From contig NZ_JAGOPN010000019.1 of NCBI RefSeq assembly GCF_017991995.1, positions 1 to 64,000 of the forward strand: 64,000 nucleotides of DNA. Direction: 5' to 3'. Numbering within the stretch: the stretch's first letter is position 1; every line of letters starts with the position of its first letter. The notes beneath the pieces were generated by a model. That model made no database searches. It had not been told where the DNA came from and worked only from the letters and a program-made list of their open reading frames with translations. The translations under genes were made by a program, and so were the position numbers. Positions 1 to 10,309 of the stretch are shown piece by piece. Source of the stretch: Pseudacidovorax sp. Its GTDB lineage: Bacteria; Pseudomonadota; Gammaproteobacteria; Burkholderiales; Burkholderiaceae_C.

Positions 1-132
1 AGTGCCGAGCGCACCGCTTGGTTGCCCGCTTTCCTGCGCTACTACAACTGCGAGCGCCCGCACTGCGCTCTGGGGCACAAGCCCCCAGCCTCCCGCCTTT
101 GTGGGAACAACCTATTGCAACTCGACACCTAG
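1..132 (+). mobile_element. IS481-family transposase, C-terminal fragment
   Basis: An open frame enters from the window edge and stops at the TAG at 130-132. The visible 43 residues contain RYYNCERPH and GHKPPASRL, then a GNNLLQLDT tail. This is how the integrase (DDE) core of IS481-type transposases ends, with the RPH and P-x-SRL motifs. No terminal inverted repeat or target duplication could be recognised after the stop. Whether the element is intact cannot be told, because its 5' part lies outside the window. It borders the less GC-rich Hint/YcaO stretch and may have brought it in. Confidence 0.75.
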
Positions 133-248
133 TATCCGAGCGACGTCCAAGGCTACTAAACAAAGGAGAGAGCAATCGGATATGCGGCTAGCCGCAGGTC
201 TATTCGCCGGTGGCTTTCTACAACAGCAGATCTATAGAGGAATCAGCC

Positions 249-1013
249 ATGGGCATCATTCAAAACTCTGGCGCTGTACATGTGAACGGCAATGTGTCCG
301 CGGTGCTTGATCGGGAGTCGCAGCAGGATGATCCTGAAGGGTGGTCGATTACCACCCGGCCCTATCGGCCAGCACTGGAAACTGGGGCTATCCCACCCGA
401 ATTTCTTTGCAACACTGGGGAAAACACCTGTTATCTGGCCGGCAATCGCGTTCGGATGGCGGACGGGTCACAAAAGGCCGTCGAGCGCATCAAGATCGGT
501 GATCTTGTGCTGACGATGCAAGGTCCCGACCGGGTCCGGGCCCTGGAGCAGCCCAAACTTGGATTGTCCCGAAAAGTCATCGAACTGCGCGGCCTTGGCG
601 ATGACTGCCTCGTGATCTCAGACGAGCATCCTCTTTGGGTGCGTCGTCTGGACGCAGATGGAAAGAGCGACGACACATGGGGAACATACAACCTCAACCA
701 CCTCATGTACGAGATGCGTAACTCCATCGAGCCGCGGCTACCGTCGCTGCCCGTGCCCTTGCAAATCGACATTCCAGAGCAACTGGCCCACGAGACCGGT
801 TGGGTGCATGCGCAGCCGATCTACCATCACTTGGCACCATCGACGCAGTTGTACAACATCGCTACAGAGAAAGGCTGCGCGGTCTTTGTTGAAGGCTTCG
901 CAGCGTTCAGTCACTGCCTTGGCTCCCTTACCCCCGCCAATGGCTGGCAGGGGTTAAGTGGTCGCCCCGCCGCGCAAGACCTGTTGAGAAAGCTTGAGCT
1001 TCACTCCGCCTGA
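249..1013 (+). CDS. Hint (intein/hedgehog-like autoprocessing) domain protein
   Basis: 254 residues. I chose the ATG at 249 because AGAGGA sits 7 bases upstream; a GTG at 210 in the same frame lacks this. Residues 1-60 are a short N-terminal segment without recognisable fold. Residues 61-223 look like a Hint domain: CYLAGNRVRMADG with Cys61 as the splice/cleavage Cys, then IKIGDLV, a block-B-like ISDEHPLW with His127, and an ending AAFSHC with His222-Cys223 in place of the usual His-Asn. A 31-residue tail follows. Hint domains cut or splice their own backbone through a thioester. The stop overlaps the next gene start (TGATG), so it is translationally coupled to the YcaO-like gene. Base composition is visibly less GC-rich than the rest of the window. 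What it releases is unknown; the short N-segment could be a peptide precursor (inference). Confidence 0.6.
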   Translation: MGIIQNSGAVHVNGNVSAVLDRESQQDDPEGWSITTRPYRPALETGAIPPEFLCNTGENTCYLAGNRVRMADGSQKAVERIKIGDLVLTMQGPDRVRALEQPKLGLSRKVIELRGLGDDCLVISDEHPLWVRRLDADGKSDDTWGTYNLNHLMYEMRNSIEPRLPSLPVPLQIDIPEQLAHETGWVHAQPIYHHLAPSTQLYNIATEKGCAVFVEGFAAFSHCLGSLTPANGWQGLSGRPAAQDLLRKLELHSA

Positions 1014-2272
1014 TGCTCATGACGTCCGCGCGCGGAACTTCACCACTTCTGCGCTTGGGAAAGATCCTCAAGCATGGTTCACGCTGCTTGATTGTGGAGA
1101 AGGCGGATGGAAAAGCAGAGATTCAAGCGCCGGCTAGGGTGTTGAACGCACTGATTCACGTGGGCGACGGCTCCCGCTCACGCTCCGAAATTGAAGCAGA
1201 GTTGGTTGCACGGACTGCTTGGCCATTTGTGTCTGGGTTTCTGGATGGCCTGCTTCTTCAAGGGGCGATGACGACGGATGGCCCGGCCGCAGTGCAGCCG
1301 CGGCGAGCGGCCATCCAATTGACGTCGCTTGACCCACAACTGCCAGCAGCAGTCACCGACCTTGGCTTCAAGTCCTTTCAAGCGACGGTCATGGGCTCCG
1401 CCGCACCTCTGGCAATGGGGTTCGGCCGGTCAGCAGAGGCGCAAATGGCCATGGATATCGCACGCTCCGAGGCATGCGAAAGGTACGCGTACCGCCATCC
1501 TCCGCGAGCGATCCGCGTTTGTAAATCCTCGGAATTGCCGCGCCACATGAGTCCTCTGACGCTGATTCAGTACGCGCCGGAACAGTACAGGAATCCAGCA
1601 CTGGCCCTGAAGCCGTATTCAAGTAGCGATCAACATCCCTGGTTGAAGGCAACTCAGCTTCAGGACGATCAGCCCACGTGGTGTCATGCTCAACTGGTCT
1701 ACGACGTGCGCTCCTCCCATGGGGAAGCGCCAGATTGCGCGCTCATGTGGCCGACCACCTCTGGTTGTGCAAGCGACGTAAACGTGCACCTCGCCATTGA
1801 GAGGGCGGGGTTGGAGGTCGTCGAGCGCGACGCCCTGGCAAGACATTGGCTCGCGCAGAAGCCATCGCATTCCATCCTGCGGAAGACGCTGCCACCCATC
1901 GTCCGCGAGTTGCTGCGACACGCCGAAGGGCAGTCGCTGGAGGTGGATGGCCGGATCGGCCTTGACGCAACAGAGGGGCTGTTCGGCAAGCCCCTCGAAA
2001 GCCTCGGTGCGCTGGGGCGGAGCCGACGACTCCGCCCTGGCACTGCGCTCATTCGCGCACGTTCGCGAACTTCACCAACTCGGCGTACTTGGCCGTGTCC
2101 TCCTGCATCAGCCGCGCCAGGTCTTCCTTGCCCGTGGCGGGGATCGAGCCGCCGTCCTCCAGGCGCCGGCGCATGCCGGGGTCGGTCAGGCCGGCCTGCA
2201 GCGCCTCGCGCAGCTTCTGCGCGAGCGGGGCCGGAAAGTGCTTCGGGCCGGCCAGCGCAAACCAGCCATTGA
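1013..2272 (+). CDS. YcaO-like cyclodehydratase, C-terminus lost (probably broken)
   Basis: The start overlaps the Hint gene stop by one base. Residues about 15-90 resemble the small winged-helix (PqqD/RRE-like) peptide-binding domains seen at the front of RiPP enzymes. Residues about 125-300 carry YcaO signatures: MGFGRSAEAQ, SEACERYAYRH and LEVVERDALARHWL. These match the ATP/Mg-binding Glu-rich blocks of YcaO, which activates amide backbones to make azolines or related groups. Homology stops near residue 330 (about 2005-2045). The remaining frame is Arg/Pro-rich and is simply antisense to the Bug gene at 2049-3044, so the last third of the YcaO domain is missing. A deletion or recombination junction at about 2000-2048 is the simplest reading. 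Another frame at 2009-2048 gives GGADDSALALRSF, which might be a frameshifted scrap of the lost part. Confidence 0.65.
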   Translation: MLMTSARGTSPLLRLGKILKHGSRCLIVEKADGKAEIQAPARVLNALIHVGDGSRSRSEIEAELVARTAWPFVSGFLDGLLLQGAMTTDGPAAVQPRRAAIQLTSLDPQLPAAVTDLGFKSFQATVMGSAAPLAMGFGRSAEAQMAMDIARSEACERYAYRHPPRAIRVCKSSELPRHMSPLTLIQYAPEQYRNPALALKPYSSSDQHPWLKATQLQDDQPTWCHAQLVYDVRSSHGEAPDCALMWPTTSGCASDVNVHLAIERAGLEVVERDALARHWLAQKPSHSILRKTLPPIVRELLRHAEGQSLEVDGRIGLDATEGLFGKPLESLGALGRSRRLRPGTALIRARSRTSPTRRTWPCPPASAAPGLPCPWRGSSRRPPGAGACRGRSGRPAAPRAASARAGPESASGRPAQTSH

Positions 2273-3044
2273 GTTCATAGCCCTTGAGCAGCGGGTGCTC
2301 GCCCAGCGCCGGCACCTGCGGCAGCGTCGGAAAGCGCTGGGCCGAGGTGATGCCCAGGGGAACGAGCCGGCCGCTGGCGATGAAGGGCGCCGCCGCCGTG
2401 GGCGAGAGCATGGCGAAGTCCAGCGCGCCGCCCACCAGGTCGGTGGTGAGCGGCCCGGTGCCGCGGTACGGGATGTGCGTCATGAAGATGCCTGCGCGCT
2501 GCTTGAGCAGCTCGCCTGCGAAGTGCAGCGTGGAGCCGACGCCCGAGCTGCCATAGCTGTACTTGCCCGGGCTGCGCTTGACCAGGGCGATCAGCTGGTC
2601 GATGTTCTTCACGCCGGTGTGCGGCGCCGCGACGAAGAGCACTGGGGCCGTGGCGATCAGCGCGATGGGCGAGAGGTCGGTCAGCGGGCTGTAGCGCTGC
2701 GACGGGTTGACCAGCGCCGTCGCCGCCATCTCGTTGCTCGATCCGGCCAGCAGCGTGTAGCCGTCCGGGCGGCTGGCGGCCACGCGCTGGGCGGCCAGCA
2801 CGCCGGCGGCGCCCGGCAGGTTGTCGATCACCACCGAGCCGCCGAGCCGGGCCGACAGGATGTCCGCCGCCACGCGGGCCGCCATGTCGACCGAGCCGCC
2901 CGGCGCGTAGCCCACCACCATGCGGATCGGCCGGGTCGGATAGGCGTCCTGGGCGAGGGCGAGCGATGCGGCCGGGCAGAGCGCGGCGCCGCCCAGGGCG
3001 CCCAGCAGGCGCCGGCGGGTGACGGAAGAAGGGGGGGAGGTCAT
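2049..3044 (-). CDS. Bug/TctC-family periplasmic solute receptor
   Basis: 331 residues. A twin-Arg-like export signal (TRRRLLGALGGAAL, then a cut near LALAQ-DA) is followed by the family start YPTRPIRMVVGYAPGGSVD, the VVIDNLPGAAG loop, ASRPDGYTLL, SYGSSGVGS and THIPYRGTGP. Bug proteins are Venus-flytrap receptors that capture carboxylates or similar small anions. Most are not encoded with membrane partners, and none is seen here. It lies 42 bp downstream of the M20 amidohydrolase on the same strand, so the two are probably co-transcribed and the receptor may bind an N-acyl amino acid or its product (inference). The C-terminus (EDTAKYAELVKFANVRE) is complete. Confidence 0.92.
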   Translation of the reverse strand: MTSPPSSVTRRRLLGALGGAALCPAASLALAQDAYPTRPIRMVVGYAPGGSVDMAARVAADILSARLGGSVVIDNLPGAAGVLAAQRVAASRPDGYTLLAGSSNEMAATALVNPSQRYSPLTDLSPIALIATAPVLFVAAPHTGVKNIDQLIALVKRSPGKYSYGSSGVGSTLHFAGELLKQRAGIFMTHIPYRGTGPLTTDLVGGALDFAMLSPTAAAPFIASGRLVPLGITSAQRFPTLPQVPALGEHPLLKGYELNGWFALAGPKHFPAPLAQKLREALQAGLTDPGMRRRLEDGGSIPATGKEDLARLMQEDTAKYAELVKFANVRE

Positions 3045-3086
3045 GGCAGTGCGAAGCGGAAGAGAAAAAGGGGCGGTGCGGCCGCG

Positions 3087-4304
3087 TCAGCGTTGCGGCG
3101 CCAGGAAGCGGCGCACCAGCTCCACCCAGTAGCTGGCAGCGATGGGCAGGATGGCGTCGTTGAAGTCGTAGCCTGGGTTGTGGACCATGCAGCCGCCGGT
3201 GTGGTGGTGCTCGCCCACGCCGTTGCCGACGATGAGGTAGCTGCCCGGGCAGTGCTCGAGCATGAAGGAGAAGTCCTCGCTGCCGGTCAGCGGCGCCAGG
3301 TCGTGCAGCAGGCCGTCCTCGCCCAGCCAGTCCGCCGCGACCTGCCGGGCGAAGCGCGTGGAGGCCACGTCGTTGACCAGCGCGGGGTAGCGCCAGTGGT
3401 AGTCCACCTCGGCCTGCACGCCCAGCGTGGCGGCCTGCGACTGCACCAGCGCGGTGATGCGCTCGCGCAGCATGGCGCGGATCTCGGGCCGGTAGGCGCG
3501 CACCGTCAGGCGCATCGTGACGGTGCCGGGAATGACGTTGGGCGCATCGCCGCCGTGGATGGCGCCGACCGACACCACGGCCATCTCGCGCGGATCCACG
3601 TTGCGCGACACGATGGTCTGCAGCGCCACGACGATGTGCGCGGCGGCCACCACCGGGTCGGTCGCCAGGTGCGGTGCCGAGCCATGGCCACCGCGGCCGC
3701 TCACGGTCACATGTACCGTGTCCGACGAGGCCATGAACGGCCCTTCCCTGAAGCCCAGCTTGCCGGCCGGAAAGCCGGGCATGTTGTGCAGGGCGAAGAT
3801 GGCGTCGCAGGGAAAGCGCTCGAACAGTCCTTCCTCCACCATCCGGCGGCCGCCGCCCAGGCCTTCCTCGGCAGGCTGGAAGACCAGGTGCAGCGTGCCG
3901 TCGAAGTCGGCCTGCTGCGCGATGACGCGCGCTGCAGCCAGCAGGATGCTGGTGTGGCCGTCATGGCCGCATGCGTGCATCTTGCCGGCCACCTGACTCG
4001 CATAGGGCAGGCCGGTGGTCTCCTGGATCGGCAGCGCATCCATGTCGGCGCGCAGGCCCAGGCGGCGCGTGCCCTGGCCCTTGCGCAGCGTGCCCACCAC
4101 GCCGGTGCCGGCCAGGCCGCGGTGCACCTCGTAGCCCCAGGCCGCCAGACGCTCGGCCACCAGATCGCTGGTGGCATGTTCCTCGTAGGCCAGCTCCGGG
4201 TGGGCATGGATGCGCTGGCGCAGCGCCACCATCTCCGGTGCGATGTCGCGCACTTCGGGGGGCACATGGTCCAGGGCAGCGGCGGTCTCGATTTCGAATG
4301 GCAT
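3087..4304 (-). CDS. M20-family metallo-amidohydrolase (hippurate-hydrolase-like)
   Basis: 405 residues, usual length for the M20D amidohydrolases. Visible blocks are HAHPELAYEEHAT, LRADMDALPI, MHACGHDGHTSILL (di-metal Cys/His/Asp site), FQPAEEGLGGGRRM and TGSEDFSFMLEHCPGSY, with an HNPGYDFND ending. Family members cleave N-acyl amino acids (hippurate, N-acetyl-amino acids, indole-acetyl-amino acids) in the cytoplasm; the acyl and amino acid here cannot be told. It shares a strand with the Bug receptor downstream and is divergent from the LysR gene at 4412, which is its likely regulator. Confidence 0.92.
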   Translation of the reverse strand: MPFEIETAAALDHVPPEVRDIAPEMVALRQRIHAHPELAYEEHATSDLVAERLAAWGYEVHRGLAGTGVVGTLRKGQGTRRLGLRADMDALPIQETTGLPYASQVAGKMHACGHDGHTSILLAAARVIAQQADFDGTLHLVFQPAEEGLGGGRRMVEEGLFERFPCDAIFALHNMPGFPAGKLGFREGPFMASSDTVHVTVSGRGGHGSAPHLATDPVVAAAHIVVALQTIVSRNVDPREMAVVSVGAIHGGDAPNVIPGTVTMRLTVRAYRPEIRAMLRERITALVQSQAATLGVQAEVDYHWRYPALVNDVASTRFARQVAADWLGEDGLLHDLAPLTGSEDFSFMLEHCPGSYLIVGNGVGEHHHTGGCMVHNPGYDFNDAILPIAASYWVELVRRFLAPQR

Positions 4305-4411: not shown

Positions 4412-5404
4412 ATGAAGCTGCATCAGCTGCGCTACCTCGTCGCAGTCGCCTCCGAGGGCGGCATCCGCGCCGCCGCCCGGTCGCTCGGCGTGACGCAGGC
4501 GACCGTCACCCAGGGCCTGCGCGAACTCGAGGCGCATGCGCAGGTGGCGCTGATCGCGCGCCGCGGCAGCCACGTCGCCCTCACGCCCGCCGGCCAGGCG
4601 CTGCTCGCGCATGCGCAGCGCATGCTGTCCGAGATGCGTCAGGCCGAAGGCATGCTGGCCCGCCATCGCGACACGGGCGCGCCGCAGCGGCTGGCGCTGG
4701 CCATCACGCCCTGGGTGGCGCAGACCCTGCTGCCGCGGGTGCTGCCCGCCTTCCGGCAGGAGCTGCCCCATGTGCAGCTGGAGATGTTCGATGGCCTGTC
4801 GGCACTGGGCTACCCGCGCCTGCGCGAAGGCAGCCTCGACCTGTTGATCGGCCGCCTCGGCCCCACCGAGTCGATGCAGGGCCTGCATGCGCAGCCCATG
4901 TTCCGCTACGAGATGACGGTGGTGGCGCGTCGCGGCCATCCACGCGCCGCGGCCCGTTCGATGGCCGAACTGCTGGACGAGGACTGGGTGCTGAACTTCA
5001 CCGCCGGCGAGCGTGTGAACCTGCTGGACAACCTGTTCGTGCAGCACGGCCTGGCGCCGCCCGTGCACCGCATCCAGCTGGCGCATTCGGCCTCGCTGAT
5101 GCTGGGCCTGGTGCGCAAGACCGACATGCTGACCTTCTGCCCATGGCCCCTGGTGGAGGGCGATGCGCTGCGCGATGAGGTCGTCGCGCTGCCGCTGCGC
5201 GAGCGCTTCCACAGCCATGTGGTGGGGCTGGTGCGCCGCTCGCACGAAGGTCTTTCGCATGCCGCGGGCCGCTTCGTCGCCCACTTCCAGGGGCAGTTGG
5301 CGGGCTGGATGTCCTCGGACGAACCCGAACTGCGCCGGGTGCTGCACTCGGTGGAGTTCGTGGGCGAGTGGCCCGCCGACGGCCCGGCGCCCGGGCGCGA
5401 CTGA
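4412..5404 (+). CDS. LysR-family transcriptional regulator
   Basis: 330 residues. The N-terminal winged helix-turn-helix covers about residues 1-60 (KLHQLRYLVAVASEGGIRAA, LGVTQATVTQGLRELE), followed by the periplasmic-binding-protein-like effector domain. It lies back to back with the M20 amidohydrolase (107-bp gap), the usual layout for a LysR protein controlling the divergent gene and itself. The 30-residue tail past the effector domain is unremarkable. The ligand is unknown; the M20 substrate or product is the natural candidate. Confidence 0.9.
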   Translation: MKLHQLRYLVAVASEGGIRAAARSLGVTQATVTQGLRELEAHAQVALIARRGSHVALTPAGQALLAHAQRMLSEMRQAEGMLARHRDTGAPQRLALAITPWVAQTLLPRVLPAFRQELPHVQLEMFDGLSALGYPRLREGSLDLLIGRLGPTESMQGLHAQPMFRYEMTVVARRGHPRAAARSMAELLDEDWVLNFTAGERVNLLDNLFVQHGLAPPVHRIQLAHSASLMLGLVRKTDMLTFCPWPLVEGDALRDEVVALPLRERFHSHVVGLVRRSHEGLSHAAGRFVAHFQGQLAGWMSSDEPELRRVLHSVEFVGEWPADGPAPGRD

Positions 5405-5634
5405 GCGACCAAGCCGCAGCCCCGTGGCCGCGGTCGCGCCCCAGGCGTGTGCGCGGCGCCCTGCCTTGGGGGAGCCCCGTGGGTCGCCCTGCGGCTCACG
5501 CCGGCTTTGGCGCACCGCCGTGCACCGAAGCACGGGGGGCATGCGGGCATGACTCCTGCATACCCCTCCAGTCTGGCGAACCGGTATCGCATCGCCGTCC
5601 CTGCAAGATTCGCGAAGTTCCGCCTTCAAATGTC

Positions 5635-5652
5635 TTATTGACAGAACAATAA
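5635..5652. promoter_or_regulatory. Inverted repeat, probable GntR/HutC operator
   Basis: TTATTG-N6-CAATAA is a perfect dyad with 6-bp arms, overlapping the -35 hexamer of the promoter at 5638-5667. AT-rich dyads of this size are typical GntR-family operators. Its place directly ahead of the regulator gene suggests autorepression. Confidence 0.5.
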
Positions 5653-5667
5653 AACGGCTCCTACGAT
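5638..5667 (+). promoter_or_regulatory. Sigma-70-type promoter of the GntR gene and operon
   Basis: A consensus -35 TTGACA (5638-5643) is followed by an 18-bp spacer and a -10 TACGAT (5662-5667). Initiation would fall at about 5673-5676, on or just before the ATG at 5676. No Shine-Dalgarno sequence lies ahead of that ATG, so the transcript may be leaderless. Confidence 0.5.
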
Positions 5668-5675
5668 CATTTCCC

Positions 5676-6455
5676 ATGTCCTCGGCGCTGCCGCTTCCCA
5701 AGTACCACCGCATCTACCTCGTGCTCCGGCAGCAGCTAGAGGAGGGCGCCTTCGAAGCGGGGCTGCCGGGCGAACATGCCTTGATGGAGCAGTTCGAGGT
5801 CTCCCGCGTCACGGTGCGCAAGGCGCTGGAGCGCCTGTCCGGCGAGGGCCTCATCAAGCGCGAGCCCGGCCGCGGCACGCGGCCCACGACGGCCAATGCC
5901 TCCGTCGCCGCGCCTGACCGCACGCCGCTCACCGGCCTGCTCGAGAACCTCGTCACCATGGGCCTGAAGACCTCGGTGAAGGTGCTCGATGTGGCGGGCA
6001 TCACCGCCTCCGAGGCGGTGGCGCAGGCGCTGGCCATCCCGGTCGGGGCCGAGGTGCAGAAGGCGGTGCGCGTGCGCAGCACGCGCGAGGGGCCGCTGTC
6101 GCTCATCACCACCTATGTGCCCCAGGCGCTGGCGCAGGGCTTCGGCCGCCGCGAGCTGGCGCGCAAGCCCATCCTGCTGCTGCTGGAGGAGTCGGGCGTG
6201 CGCGTGGGCCGGGCGCACCAGAGCATCTCGGCCCGGCTGGCCGACGCCCACACGGCCGAGCACCTCGACGTGTCGGTCGGCACGGCGCTGCTGGCCGTGC
6301 GCCGCCTCATCTACGACGTGGACGACCGGCCTGTGCAATGGCTGCACGGCCTGTACCGGCCCGACCGCTACGAGTACCAGATGGAGCTGTCCCGCGTTGG
6401 CGACATCGACGCCAAGGTGTGGGTCAGCAAGGACGCTTCCGCCCGCTTTTCCTGA
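5676..6455 (+). CDS. GntR-family regulator, HutC subfamily (UTRA domain)
   Basis: 259 residues. The GntR winged helix occupies about residues 5-75 (YHRIYLVLRQQLEEGAF, FEVSRVTVRKALERL, IKREPGRGT). A UTRA effector domain follows at about 95-250, ending WLHGLYRPDRYEYQM. HutC-type proteins repress catabolic operons until a small ligand binds. The gene is 25 bp upstream of the ABC receptor gene on the same strand and heads the long operon that ends at 19576, so it is the obvious regulator of it. No Shine-Dalgarno sequence is visible before the ATG. Confidence 0.9.
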   Translation: MSSALPLPKYHRIYLVLRQQLEEGAFEAGLPGEHALMEQFEVSRVTVRKALERLSGEGLIKREPGRGTRPTTANASVAAPDRTPLTGLLENLVTMGLKTSVKVLDVAGITASEAVAQALAIPVGAEVQKAVRVRSTREGPLSLITTYVPQALAQGFGRRELARKPILLLLEESGVRVGRAHQSISARLADAHTAEHLDVSVGTALLAVRRLIYDVDDRPVQWLHGLYRPDRYEYQMELSRVGDIDAKVWVSKDASARFS

Positions 6456-6479
6456 CATCGACCCACGAAGGAGTTCGCC

Positions 6480-7694
6480 GTGACCCAGCCCACCCGCAAC
6501 CGTCGCCAGTTCATCGCCCAGTCGGCCGCCGCCGCGTCCGCGCTCGCCTTGCCGACCATCGGCGGTGCCCAGCCGCGCAGCATCAAGGTCGGCGTGCTGC
6601 ACCCGGTCACCGGGGCGCTCGCCTATTCGGGCCAGCAGTGCCGGGCTGGCGCGCTCATGGCCATCGAGGACATCAACAAGGCCGGTGGCATCAAGTCGCT
6701 CGGCGGTGCGCGCCTCGAAGCCCTGCTGGGCGATGCCCAGTCGCAGCCGCAGGCCGGCGCGGCCGAGGTCGAGAAGATGAACGAGGCCGGCGTGTCCGCC
6801 GTGGTCGGCGCCTTCGCCTCGGCCATCTGCCTGGCCACCACGCAGGCCGCCGCCAAGTACAACCTGCCGCACATCGTGGACGTGGGCGTGGCCGACCAGA
6901 TCGTCGAGCGCGGCCTGAAGAACACCTTCCGCTTCGGCCCCGGCTACAAGGCCGTGACCGATCTGGCCATGTCCAACCTGCACGTGCTCAACAGCGTGGC
7001 GGGCAAGCCGGCCAAGACCGTGATGATCATCCACGAGGAGTCGCTCTTCGGCACCGGCACGGCCAACCTGCTGTCGCGCGAACTGCCGGGCTATGGCTTC
7101 GAGGTGAAGGAAGTCATCAAGCACGCCAACCCCACGCGCGACTTCAACAACATCGTGCTGCGCATCAAGTCCGTCAACCCGGACATCGTGATCCCGGCCA
7201 ACTACTACAACGAATACGCACTGCTGGTGCGCACCATGCAGCAGCAGCGCGTGGTGCCCAAGGCCATCTACTCGGTGCTGGGCGGCGCGGCGTCGAGCTA
7301 CAAGTTTGTGCAGGAGTTCCCCGATGCCTCGCACGGCATCATCGACTGCAACCACTGGTTCAACCCCAAGGACGCACGCGCCCAGGCGCTCAAGAAGCGG
7401 GCCGAGGCCCAGAAGCTGTACTTCAGCTATGAGCTGTTCATGACCTACACCAGCATGATGCTGCTGGCCGATGCGCTGGAGCGGGCCAAGTCCAGCGAGC
7501 GCGCGGCGCTGATCGACGCGCTGGAGAAGAGCACCTTCTCCGACCACTTCATGCCCTACGGCCCGACCAAGTTCGTCAATGGCCAGAACCAGGGCGGCCG
7601 CCCGCTGATGACGCAGGTCATCGACAAGGACATCAAGGTCATCATCCCGCGCGAATACCGCGAGGCCGAGCCCCTGTTCCCGCTCAAGGCCTGA
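6480..7694 (+). CDS. Branched-chain-amino-acid-type ABC transporter receptor (periplasmic binding protein)
   Basis: 404 residues with a GTG start preceded by GAAGGAG. A Tat-like signal (NRRQFIAQSAAAASALALP) precedes the type I periplasmic-binding fold: IKVGVLHPVTGALAYSG, AIEDINKAGGI, and a hinge region around NPTRDFNNIVLRIK. It supplies substrate to the LivHMGF genes that follow. Family members bind amino acids, amides, urea or aromatic acids. The downstream hydantoinase and hydro-lyase genes suggest a cyclic amide or dicarboxylate-type ligand (inference). Confidence 0.9.
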   Translation: MTQPTRNRRQFIAQSAAAASALALPTIGGAQPRSIKVGVLHPVTGALAYSGQQCRAGALMAIEDINKAGGIKSLGGARLEALLGDAQSQPQAGAAEVEKMNEAGVSAVVGAFASAICLATTQAAAKYNLPHIVDVGVADQIVERGLKNTFRFGPGYKAVTDLAMSNLHVLNSVAGKPAKTVMIIHEESLFGTGTANLLSRELPGYGFEVKEVIKHANPTRDFNNIVLRIKSVNPDIVIPANYYNEYALLVRTMQQQRVVPKAIYSVLGGAASSYKFVQEFPDASHGIIDCNHWFNPKDARAQALKKRAEAQKLYFSYELFMTYTSMMLLADALERAKSSERAALIDALEKSTFSDHFMPYGPTKFVNGQNQGGRPLMTQVIDKDIKVIIPREYREAEPLFPLKA

Positions 7695-7718
7695 ACGGCA
7701 CCACCAGGCTCCTTTTCC

Positions 7719-8591
7719 ATGTTCGATCTGTCGATCGTGGTGCCGTCCGTGCTGAACGGACTCACCACCGGGGCGGTCTACGCCCTCATCGCCCTGGGGC
7801 TCACGCTGATCTACGGCGTGCTGCACATCATCAACTTCGCGCACGGCGCCTCGCTGATGCTGGCGCTCTATGCCGTCTACTGGCTGCGCGCGCAGTTCGG
7901 CATCGACCCCTACCTGGCGCTGCCGCTGGTGGTGGCGGGCATGTTCGCGCTGGGCTACGTGCTGCAGCGCGGCATCATCAACCGCGCCAGCCACGGCAAG
8001 GACGAGAACATCCTGCTGGTCACGCTGGGCCTGTCGATCGTGATGGAGAACCTGGCGCTGCTGTTCTTCCGCTCCGACACGCGCACCATCGACACGCCCT
8101 ACACGCTGACGACGCTGCAGATCGGCCCGGCCTTCATCGCGCTGCCCAAGCTCATCGCCTTCGGCGGTGCGCTGGCCGGGGCGGCCGTGCTGCTGTGGAT
8201 CGTCAAGGCCACCGACCTGGGCCGCGCGATCCGCGCCGTGGCCAAGGAGAAGCAGGGCGCGCGCCTGATGGGCATCGACGTCGACCATGTCTACGCCATG
8301 AGCTTCGGCATCGGCCTGGCCTGCCTGGGCGCGGCCGCCTGCTTCCTGCTGCCGGCCTACTACGTCAACCCGCAGGTGGGCGGCGGCTTCGTGCTGGTGG
8401 CCTTCACCATCGTGGTGCTGGGCGGCATGGGCAGCTTCGCAGGCGCGCTGGTGGGCGGGCTGCTGATCGGCGTGGTCGAGTCGCTGGGCGGCCTCTTCCT
8501 GGGCGAGTCGCTGGGGCAGATCGGCATCTTCCTCATCTTCATCGCGGTGCTGCTGTTCCGTCCCCAGGGCCTCTTCGGAAGCAAGGCATGA
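7719..8591 (+). CDS. livH: Branched-chain-type ABC transporter permease LivH
   Basis: 290 residues, strongly hydrophobic, about eight membrane spans. LivH hallmarks are LNGLTTGAVYALIALGLTLIYG near the N-terminus, INFAHGASLML, the cytoplasmic loop with KATDLGRAIRAVAKEKQGARLMGID, and the VLGGMGSFAGALVGGLLIG segment. It forms the inner-membrane channel with LivM. Its stop overlaps the livM start (ATGA). Confidence 0.95.
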   Translation: MFDLSIVVPSVLNGLTTGAVYALIALGLTLIYGVLHIINFAHGASLMLALYAVYWLRAQFGIDPYLALPLVVAGMFALGYVLQRGIINRASHGKDENILLVTLGLSIVMENLALLFFRSDTRTIDTPYTLTTLQIGPAFIALPKLIAFGGALAGAAVLLWIVKATDLGRAIRAVAKEKQGARLMGIDVDHVYAMSFGIGLACLGAAACFLLPAYYVNPQVGGGFVLVAFTIVVLGGMGSFAGALVGGLLIGVVESLGGLFLGESLGQIGIFLIFIAVLLFRPQGLFGSKA

Positions 8592-9542
8592 AATCGGTTC
8601 TTCTCATCGTGGTGTTCGCCCTCGTGGTGGGCGCCATTCCGCTCGTCACCACCTCGGGGGTCTGGCTCAACTTCGTCATGATGGCGCTCTACGCGGCGCT
8701 GCTGGCGCAGGCCTGGAACATCCTGGGCGGCTTCGGCGGGCAGTTCTCCTTCGGGCATGCGCTGTTCTTCGGCTTCGGCGCCTATGTGCAGGCCATCGCG
8801 CAGCTGCAGTGGGGCCTCAACCCCTGGGTGGCGCTGGTGGCGGCGGCTGGCGTCGCGGCGCTGGTCGGCTTGATCGTGGGGGCGCTGAGCTTCCGCTACG
8901 GCCTCAAGGGCTCGTACTTCGCGCTGGTCACGCTGGCCTTCGCGGAGGTGTGCCGCATCCTGGCGCTGTCGCTGCCCTTCACCGGGGCCGGCGTCGGCCT
9001 GATGGTGCCGCTGCGCGAGTCGGTGGCCAACCTGCAGTTCGGCTCGCGGGTGGGATACCTGTACGTGATCCTCGCCATGGTGGTGGCGGCCCTGCTGGTC
9101 AGTGCCTGGCTGCGCCACTCGCGCTTCGGCGCCTACCTCCAGGCGGTGCGCGACAACGAGGACGCGGCCCGCGCGGCCGGCGTCGATCCGCTGCGCGTCA
9201 AGCTCGGCGCCATCGTGCTGTCGGGCGGCTTCATGGGCCTGGCCGGTGCCTTCTATGTGCAGGTGTTCCAGTACATCGACCCGGGCATCGCCTTCGGCTC
9301 CACCGCCTCCGTGGAGGCGCTGGTGGCGGCCATCGTGGGCGGCATGGGCACCGTGTGGGGCCCGCTGCTGGGCGCCTTCGCGCTGCATGTGCTGGCCGAC
9401 CTGACGCGCAACCTGTTCGGCGAGCTGCCGGGCATCAACATGGTCATCTATGGCTGCGTGCTGGTGCTGATCGTGATGTTCCTGCCGCGCGGCATCGCCG
9501 GCGTGGGGCAGAACGTGCGCCGGCTCTGGAAGGGAGGCCGCG

Positions 9543-9550
<8 letters not shown>
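8588..9550 (+). CDS. livM: Branched-chain-type ABC transporter permease LivM
   Basis: 320 residues from the ATG at 8588, which overlaps the livH stop. The frame is open further upstream, but only this start keeps a normal LivM N-terminus. Conserved parts are LAQAWNILGGFGGQFSFGHA, the coupling loop SRFGAYLQAVRDNEDAARAAG and the IVGGMGTVWGPLLGAF segment near the C-terminus. It pairs with LivH in the inner membrane. It overlaps livG by 8 bases. Confidence 0.94.

Positions 9551-10309
<759 letters not shown>

Follow-up and report, generated by a model that had tools for sequence, protein, structure and literature searches.

A Hint-domain protein encoded beside a truncated YcaO gene in Pseudacidovorax: a candidate self-cleaving peptide precursor

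Inteins, BILs and the hedgehog Hog domain share the Hint fold, of which an N-terminal Cys and a block-B T/S-x-x-H motif are the recognised marks. A protein of Pseudacidovorax sp., encoded in the window (the first 64 kb, or 64,000 nucleotides, of one contig of a 6.24-Mb genome), resembles them in its predicted Hint fold, its N-terminal Cys and its S/T-x-x-H motif. It differs in having neither the terminal His-Asn nor an endonuclease match, and its Hint domain is preceded by a 60-residue peptide, beside a YcaO gene, rather than by a large protein. Azole-forming YcaO/SagB RiPP clusters (linear azole peptides) are a second point of comparison. Albitalea terrae, which carries a homologue of the window protein, likewise has a YcaO, a SagB-like dehydrogenase and a candidate precursor on one strand, but here the precursor bears a Hint domain, its core is not rich in Cys, Ser or Thr, and the YcaO of the window is truncated. 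A third comparison is with the ATP-grasp 'branch 6' loci, which associate with YcaO and SagB. A 2022 survey was unable to assign precursors to most branch 6 loci, and neither Hint nor intein occurs in its main text (PMC8939145). Albitalea likewise combines ATP-grasp with YcaO and SagB, a likeness in gene content. Hint-capped phage tail fibres (Achromobacter phages 2-1 and JWF, and IMG/VR contigs) also have a substrate-like segment before the Hint Cys and a RiPP-type maturase nearby; however, those fibres are large, with a Cys array and a SPASM radical SAM enzyme, whereas the window has a 60-residue peptide with GWSITTRPYR and a YcaO. Our search of the open-licence literature returned no Hint-YcaO or Hint-radical SAM system in titles or abstract openings, which does not imply absence from print, and no paper on radical SAM modification of Cys-array phage tail fibres.

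The features of the locus are given in Table 1. The contig begins at window base 1, and four plasmid records match window positions 6/7-132 at 76-79% DNA identity, three of them with an annotated IS481 family transposase there. Cys61, His127, His222 and Cys223 are all found in the open reading frame at 249-1013, as a sequence-only reading of this DNA had listed them, and its TGA (1011-1013) does adjoin the YcaO start, overlapping the ATG (1013-1015) by one base. The ATG at 249 is supported because a related relic in a congener (see below) opens with an identical MGIIQNS.

Table 1. Coordinates of features in the window, and of candidate peptides in related genomes
Feature	Position	Strand	Basis
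IS481-type transposase gene, 3' end, at contig start	1..132	+	Frame ends TAG 130-132 by eye; DNA similarity to plasmids
AGAGG 8 nt 5' of the ATG, probable ribosome binding site	236..240	+	By eye
N-segment/Hint protein gene, ATG start, 254 aa	249..1013	+	ORF; full-length Albitalea terrae homologue at 47% identity
N-segment, residues 1-60, candidate peptide substrate	249..428	+	18 positions invariant across 3 genomes; pLDDT <50 for residues 1-44
Conserved block GWSITTRPYR, residues 31-40	339..368	+	Comparison of three N-segments
Hint core, residues 61-221 (Cys61 429-431, Ser124 618-620, His127 627-629)	429..911	+	Pfam, alignment, predicted model, fold search
C-terminal tail, residues 222-254, with WQG	912..1010	+	Motif common with phage relatives
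YcaO gene remnant: winged-helix/RRE-like N-terminus ~1037-1282, first half of YcaO 1418-1945	1013..1945	+	Profiles, alignments
Junction without detectable YcaO homology; open frame continues to 2272, antisense to next gene	1946..2048	.	ORF and homology search
TctC/Bug-type receptor gene, unrelated neighbour	2049..3044	-	Pfam profile 2-271 of 274
Candidate precursor peptides with RLPH..G.PL after SagB-YcaO	L039:8300, L040:7591, L041:8595, L043:4917	L040 minus	Short-ORF comparison, window's family

Four Pfam Hint models match within residues 59-131 of the window protein, every one below its cut-off (Hom_end_hint 22.5 bits against 32.1, Vint 21.1 against 27, Hint_2 18.3 against 28.4, Hint 15.2 against 29.7), and the NCBIfam models gave no Hint match. 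Pfam alone is therefore insufficient, and the Hint domain proposed from the letters holds by virtue of a confident predicted fold and its matches to inteins, BILs and hedgehog. In a structure model built on 14 aligned sequences, the Hint core has ten-residue block means of 78-95 pLDDT over residues 61-150 and 79-89 over residues 171-220; the N-segment is modelled with low confidence and is probably disordered. The best 50 rows of both Foldseek and VIA-align against the PDB hold inteins, BILs (among them a Clostridium BIL) and hedgehog, the top match being the BIL2 domain of a T. thermophila BUBL locus. Cys61 aligns structurally with intein position 1 and hedgehog residue 258. Both Cys61 and His127 are invariant across all 14 aligned rows, and the first position of the block-B T/S-x-x-H motif is Ser124 in the window protein and Thr in Albitalea. 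On the evidence of the predicted model, the Hint assignment is more than chance.

The terminal His222-Cys223 had been listed among the Hint marks, but its reading as a mark of splicing or cyclisation is not supported. His222 is conserved between the window and Albitalea proteins, with Cys or Ser as residue 223, as intein-like splicing might lead one to expect, but window residues 61 to 221 span the first to the last intein residue in many structural alignments. Because the last residue of many inteins aligns with Ser221, His222-Cys223 is not the His-Asn junction; Phe220-Ser221 sit at that position in splicing inteins, Ser221 in place of the terminal Asn, and His222-Cys223 fall beyond it. As modelled, the protein is without what a splicing intein requires at its C-terminal end. 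The 31-residue tail has a W-x-G-L/I in common with most array-type phage relatives, so it is probably Hint-subfamily sequence and not a separate peptide, which also counts against splicing. We regard splicing or cyclisation via His222-Cys223 as improbable in the extreme. An intein inside a host gene was also rejected, given that there is no flanking host protein, no Pfam endonuclease domain match and no splicing end. A polymorphic toxin was rejected as well; such plasmid proteins (four of seven matching records) cover just 28% of the query, and the window protein showed no toxin-like feature.

The YcaO gene said to follow the Hint gene is indeed there, but only in part: its frame matches positions 2-177 of the 325-position Pfam profile, and the C-terminal half is gone. 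With seven full-length YcaO relatives as queries against window positions 1-4000, no convincing alignment was found past base 1945 in any frame, one fragment (E 0.15) lying at 2134-2244. In the alignment, where its row is cut at 1945, the remnant retains an RRE-like N-terminus and the conserved YcaO stretches SEACERYAYR and EVVERDALARHW, has no SagB insert, and lacks everything from there to the C-terminal HPF that is common to all seven relatives. A profile of the N-terminal domains gave two matches, PbtF (E 0.0064) and a second chain (E 0.43), which makes the RRE assignment weak. After 1945 the open frame runs antisense into the TctC-type gene, itself a near-complete Pfam match.

We looked for components elsewhere in the same genome that could rescue the locus, and found no YcaO, SagB or ATP-grasp in that role. 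The truncated YcaO is the sole match in the whole genome, and one SagB-like match, below cut-off, lies on a different contig (C20). There is no dedicated ATP-grasp near the locus, and the genome has just two weak ATP-grasp matches, a pair found in all 15 genomes of the genus that may be a cyanophycin synthetase pair. Given the truncated sole YcaO, the lack of a dedicated ATP-grasp and the location of the SagB-like match, the window locus is probably the remnant of a system whose precursor frame is unbroken. Since its YcaO has lost the C-terminal half, the reaction is probably beyond this genome. At L141:7791-9434 it encodes a stand-alone SagB-like dehydrogenase (547 residues), near a nitrogenase-iron-protein-like gene (named by eye).

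In a protein search of 299 family genomes, six had any match at E 0.001 (window genome included), and one other homologue was full-length, that of Albitalea terrae S-16 (47% identity). At E 1e-8, profile searches covering 399 genomes of the order and 398 of the phylum matched the window's own genome alone. A scan of genome contigs, insensitive (two short patterns) and possibly excluding the window's own record, returned Albitalea alone. Within the two genera, the Hint protein was matched in 2 of 15 genomes for the window's genus (its own and the congener G1051) and in one of five for Albitalea. A plasmid search with the Albitalea SagB-YcaO gave no matches at 1e-20, and a viral scan with the A1 query found no relative.

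The Albitalea locus (L007) encodes on one strand a glycosyltransferase (~4770-6056), a radical SAM enzyme (6053-6859), a SagB-YcaO fusion (6811-9045) and the Hint protein (9154-9918), the last beginning 108 nt downstream of the complete fusion gene; two ATP-grasp genes lie on the opposite strand. The YcaO domain there is complete (profile 2-324 of 325), and the SagB-type dehydrogenase falls short of its cut-off (67.3 against 78.4 bits). Judged by gene content, the set looks complete, from glycosyltransferase, radical SAM and SagB-YcaO to Hint precursor and ATP-grasp. The gene order is reversed between the two genomes (YcaO then Hint in Albitalea, Hint then YcaO in the window), with adjacency kept in both. 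In the congener, a relic (L010:1501-2091) has N-segment residues 1-55, 60% identical, in frame with mid-YcaO sequence that is 52% identical over 140 residues; the similarity ends early here too, and the frame runs antisense to another gene. As the alignment reads, the Hint domain and the YcaO N-terminus are deleted from this relic. RHS/YD-repeat-like large proteins with a LysM-like stretch, recognised by eye, are encoded downstream of two YcaO clusters (L007:13243-19494 and L043:7559-11989, both minus strand).

The three N-segments share 18 invariant positions, eight of them in GW[SA]IT[TV]RPYR; GWSITTRPYR is identical in the window and Albitalea, and the congener has GWAITVRPYR. A DNA pattern for W.IT.RPY was found in 9 of 117 loci compared, all nine of them copies of the window, Albitalea and congener places. 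The N-segment is 60 residues long in both full-length proteins, and the residue before the Hint Cys differs between them, Thr in the window protein but Cys in that of Albitalea. The sequence-only reading had made the pairing depend on YcaO recurring beside homologues, and it does: the Albitalea homologue is adjacent to a YcaO, and the congener N-segment is joined to one. These observations bear on whether a stray Hint gene derived from a phage tail simply landed next to a decaying YcaO gene. The nearest other Hints are found in phage tail proteins, and the IS481 element and broken YcaO indicate rearrangement at the window locus, which would suit such an accident. However, the adjacency recurs in Albitalea with the order reversed, and the N-segment alone recurs beside YcaO in the congener, and we think an accident very improbable. 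By these genomic comparisons, a chance Hint-YcaO pairing is unlikely, and the pairing appears real and unusual, with independent support.

With the YcaO profile, 22 of 399 family genomes were positive, window and Albitalea included, and in these two alone was the Hint found. A search of the other 20 genomes and G1051 with the Hint protein found matches at E 1 in 7 of the 21; apart from the G1051 N-segment these were weak, and the best of them (E 5e-4) lies on a contig other than that of the YcaO. An N-segment profile gave nothing better than E 0.05 beyond the window, Albitalea and the congener. For 13 of the 20 sister genomes we took 12-16 kb around the YcaO and read six clusters in detail. 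A related ATP-grasp gene is present in all six and in Albitalea. Among the short ORFs of these 13 loci and of Albitalea, 23 pairs proved similar, of which two lie directly after SagB-YcaO; by their coordinates, several others are antisense to YcaO or ATP-grasp genes. Four of the six clusters have a peptide gene of 58-66 codons beginning 10-73 nt after the SagB-YcaO stop (G099, 62 residues; G1113, 66; G1110, 58; G223, 60). These slot peptides form two similar pairs (43% and 49%), and RLPH..G.PL is common to the four. The fifth cluster (G097) has an unrelated-looking 65-residue ORF 12 nt past the YcaO, and the sixth (G132) has no peptide ORF in the slot. Conserved proteins of 199-248 residues, 45-56% identical, are encoded after the peptide gene at L039:8566-9165, L040:6676-7422 (minus) and L041:8788-9468. 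Cys arrays were also sought in 14 chromosomal YcaO loci, and the four regular-expression matches proved spurious by eye.

By position, the Albitalea Hint gene occupies the slot of the sisters' precursor-like peptide, and the N-segment matches these candidate precursors in length. Similarity in sequence is another matter. An hhalign comparison of the N-segment with the stand-alone slot peptides found none. In three designs that used all rows and controlled relatedness in part, 23, 46 and 37 shuffles per 1000 matched the summed local scores between N-segment and slot peptides, and an earlier design with fewer rows reached the score in 3 of 500. A profile of the four slot peptides, whose matches to those same peptides carry no test value, found no relative in the Albitalea stretch at E 1. 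It may be that the Hint protein is instead a self-processing partner that aids or regulates the YcaO machinery, with the true peptide encoded elsewhere. The lack of convincing similarity between the N-segment and the sister-cluster peptides would fit such a partner, and GWSITTRPYR could be a binding motif rather than a modified one. Nevertheless, the slot-peptide profile found no such peptide in Albitalea, the N-segment is of low confidence in the model, and it was retained beside YcaO after loss of the Hint in the congener; a partner role seems unlikely to us.

We lean slightly towards the view that the protein is the precursor of a RiPP-like system, with the N-segment as substrate and the Hint domain as a removable C-terminal cap that cleaves at Cys61. 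The predicted fold, the conserved Cys and His, the gene neighbourhood and the truncation are established, and from them we infer the substrate role, cleavage, modification, product and order of steps. In this scenario, modification would fall on residues 1-60, in which a core around GWSITTRPYR follows a leader that the YcaO N-terminal domain would bind, and the Hint domain would be a C-terminal cap built into the precursor. The modifying enzyme would be YcaO/SagB on the chromosome, or radical SAM in phage. Cys61 would attack the preceding peptide bond to form a thioester, and the N-segment could possibly be released by the Hint domain, leaving with a defined C-terminus when the thioester is hydrolysed or taken over by a nucleophile; the cap would not splice. 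The substrate reading is limited by there being two full-length members alone, by a GWSITTRPYR core that is not Cys/Ser/Thr-rich, by the weak RRE match, by the lack of demonstrable similarity to the slot peptides and by the differing residue before the Hint Cys.

Transfer might also be the main outcome. The Hint domain of hedgehog carries out a transfer reaction, and conjugation has been proposed for BUBL proteins. By analogy, an amine or alcohol would take over the modified N-segment from its thioester with Cys61, giving a conjugate and not a free acid. The absence of a C-terminal Asn, the BIL2 domain as top fold match and the ATP-grasp genes adjoining the Albitalea Hint gene are all compatible with a transferase. 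Fold likeness, however, shows no function, and ATP-grasp genes occur in Hint-less clusters too, and we consider a dedicated transferase doubtful, more so than a partner protein.

The precursor reading gains a parallel from phage. The closest other Hints are in phage tail proteins, the best phage matches covering 61-68% of the protein at 33-37% identity, and a viral scan gave 58 Hint relatives. The window Hint groups with phage array Hints, the tree support being weak (80/47). In the nearest phage group a Cys array, for example NCNCDCNCSC, stands immediately before the Hint Cys, and the final Cys of such a CNCNC-type array is the first residue of the Hint. Downstream of six distinct Hint-array loci lie radical SAM genes that belong to a single family: 5 of the 58 (L060-L064), of which L062 is JWF again, together with Achromobacter phages 2-1 and JWF. 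Providencia PSTNGR1 has neither a Cys array nor such a radical SAM gene within the 8.5 kb examined. The radical SAM enzyme of the G097 cluster is 41% identical to the phage enzyme; that of Albitalea is distant from it (29% over about 100 residues). Both the phage and G097 enzymes have a SPASM domain above cut-off, and among the models they match PapB ranthipeptide maturase best, with scores that fall far short of the cut-off.

A scan of viral contigs with the phage radical SAM enzyme was analysed for the best 80 loci among the matches listed (L150-L229), near-duplicates included. Arrays of at least four alternating Cys are found on the same strand in 59 of these best 80 loci and on the opposite strand in eight; as a control, 53 other Hint loci have arrays on the same strand in none and on the opposite strand in seven. 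A Hint is present in 7 of the 59 array loci. In all 53 arrays without a Hint (in 52 of the best 80 loci), 0-5 residues separate the array from the stop codon, as they do in three of eight opposite-strand control arrays, and the seven Hint-bearing arrays are followed by 170-193 residues. The radical SAM gene starts 1.2-3.3 kb past the array in most of these loci; there are two exceptions, one at 5.4 kb and one with the array on the far side. Under a slightly looser array rule, 20 of these 80 loci are without an array; 17 of them have less than 3 kb of sequence before the enzyme, and the other three have more. All four Hint-less array proteins tested match tail-fibre families. L184 (2735-4381 and 6001-7332) is an example: one gene has an alternating Cys array like NCNCNCNC at its very C-terminus, and a gene for a SPASM radical SAM enzyme follows it. 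From their gene content, the viral Cys-array/radical SAM loci look like RiPP-type modification of tail-fibre tips.

Taken together, the slot peptides and the phage arrays place the start of the Hint where related substrates come to an end. We raise, tentatively and with less confidence than the precursor reading itself, the idea that Hint domains are general removable C-terminal caps for substrates of RiPP-type maturases, in place of the relatives' stop codon. Such a cap might shield or present the peptide during modification and then cut itself off, leaving a modified C-terminus, possibly thioester-activated. The YcaO peptides of chromosomes and the Cys-array tail fibres of phage could then be two uses of one trick.

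RiPP precursors usually rely on a separate protease to free the core. A self-cleaving precursor, if true, would be a compact alternative to the protease and could yield thioester-activated modified peptides. For YcaO/ATP-grasp loci, a Hint-capped peptide would be a candidate kind of precursor, and the parallel in phage points to tail-fibre tips that may be chemically modified.
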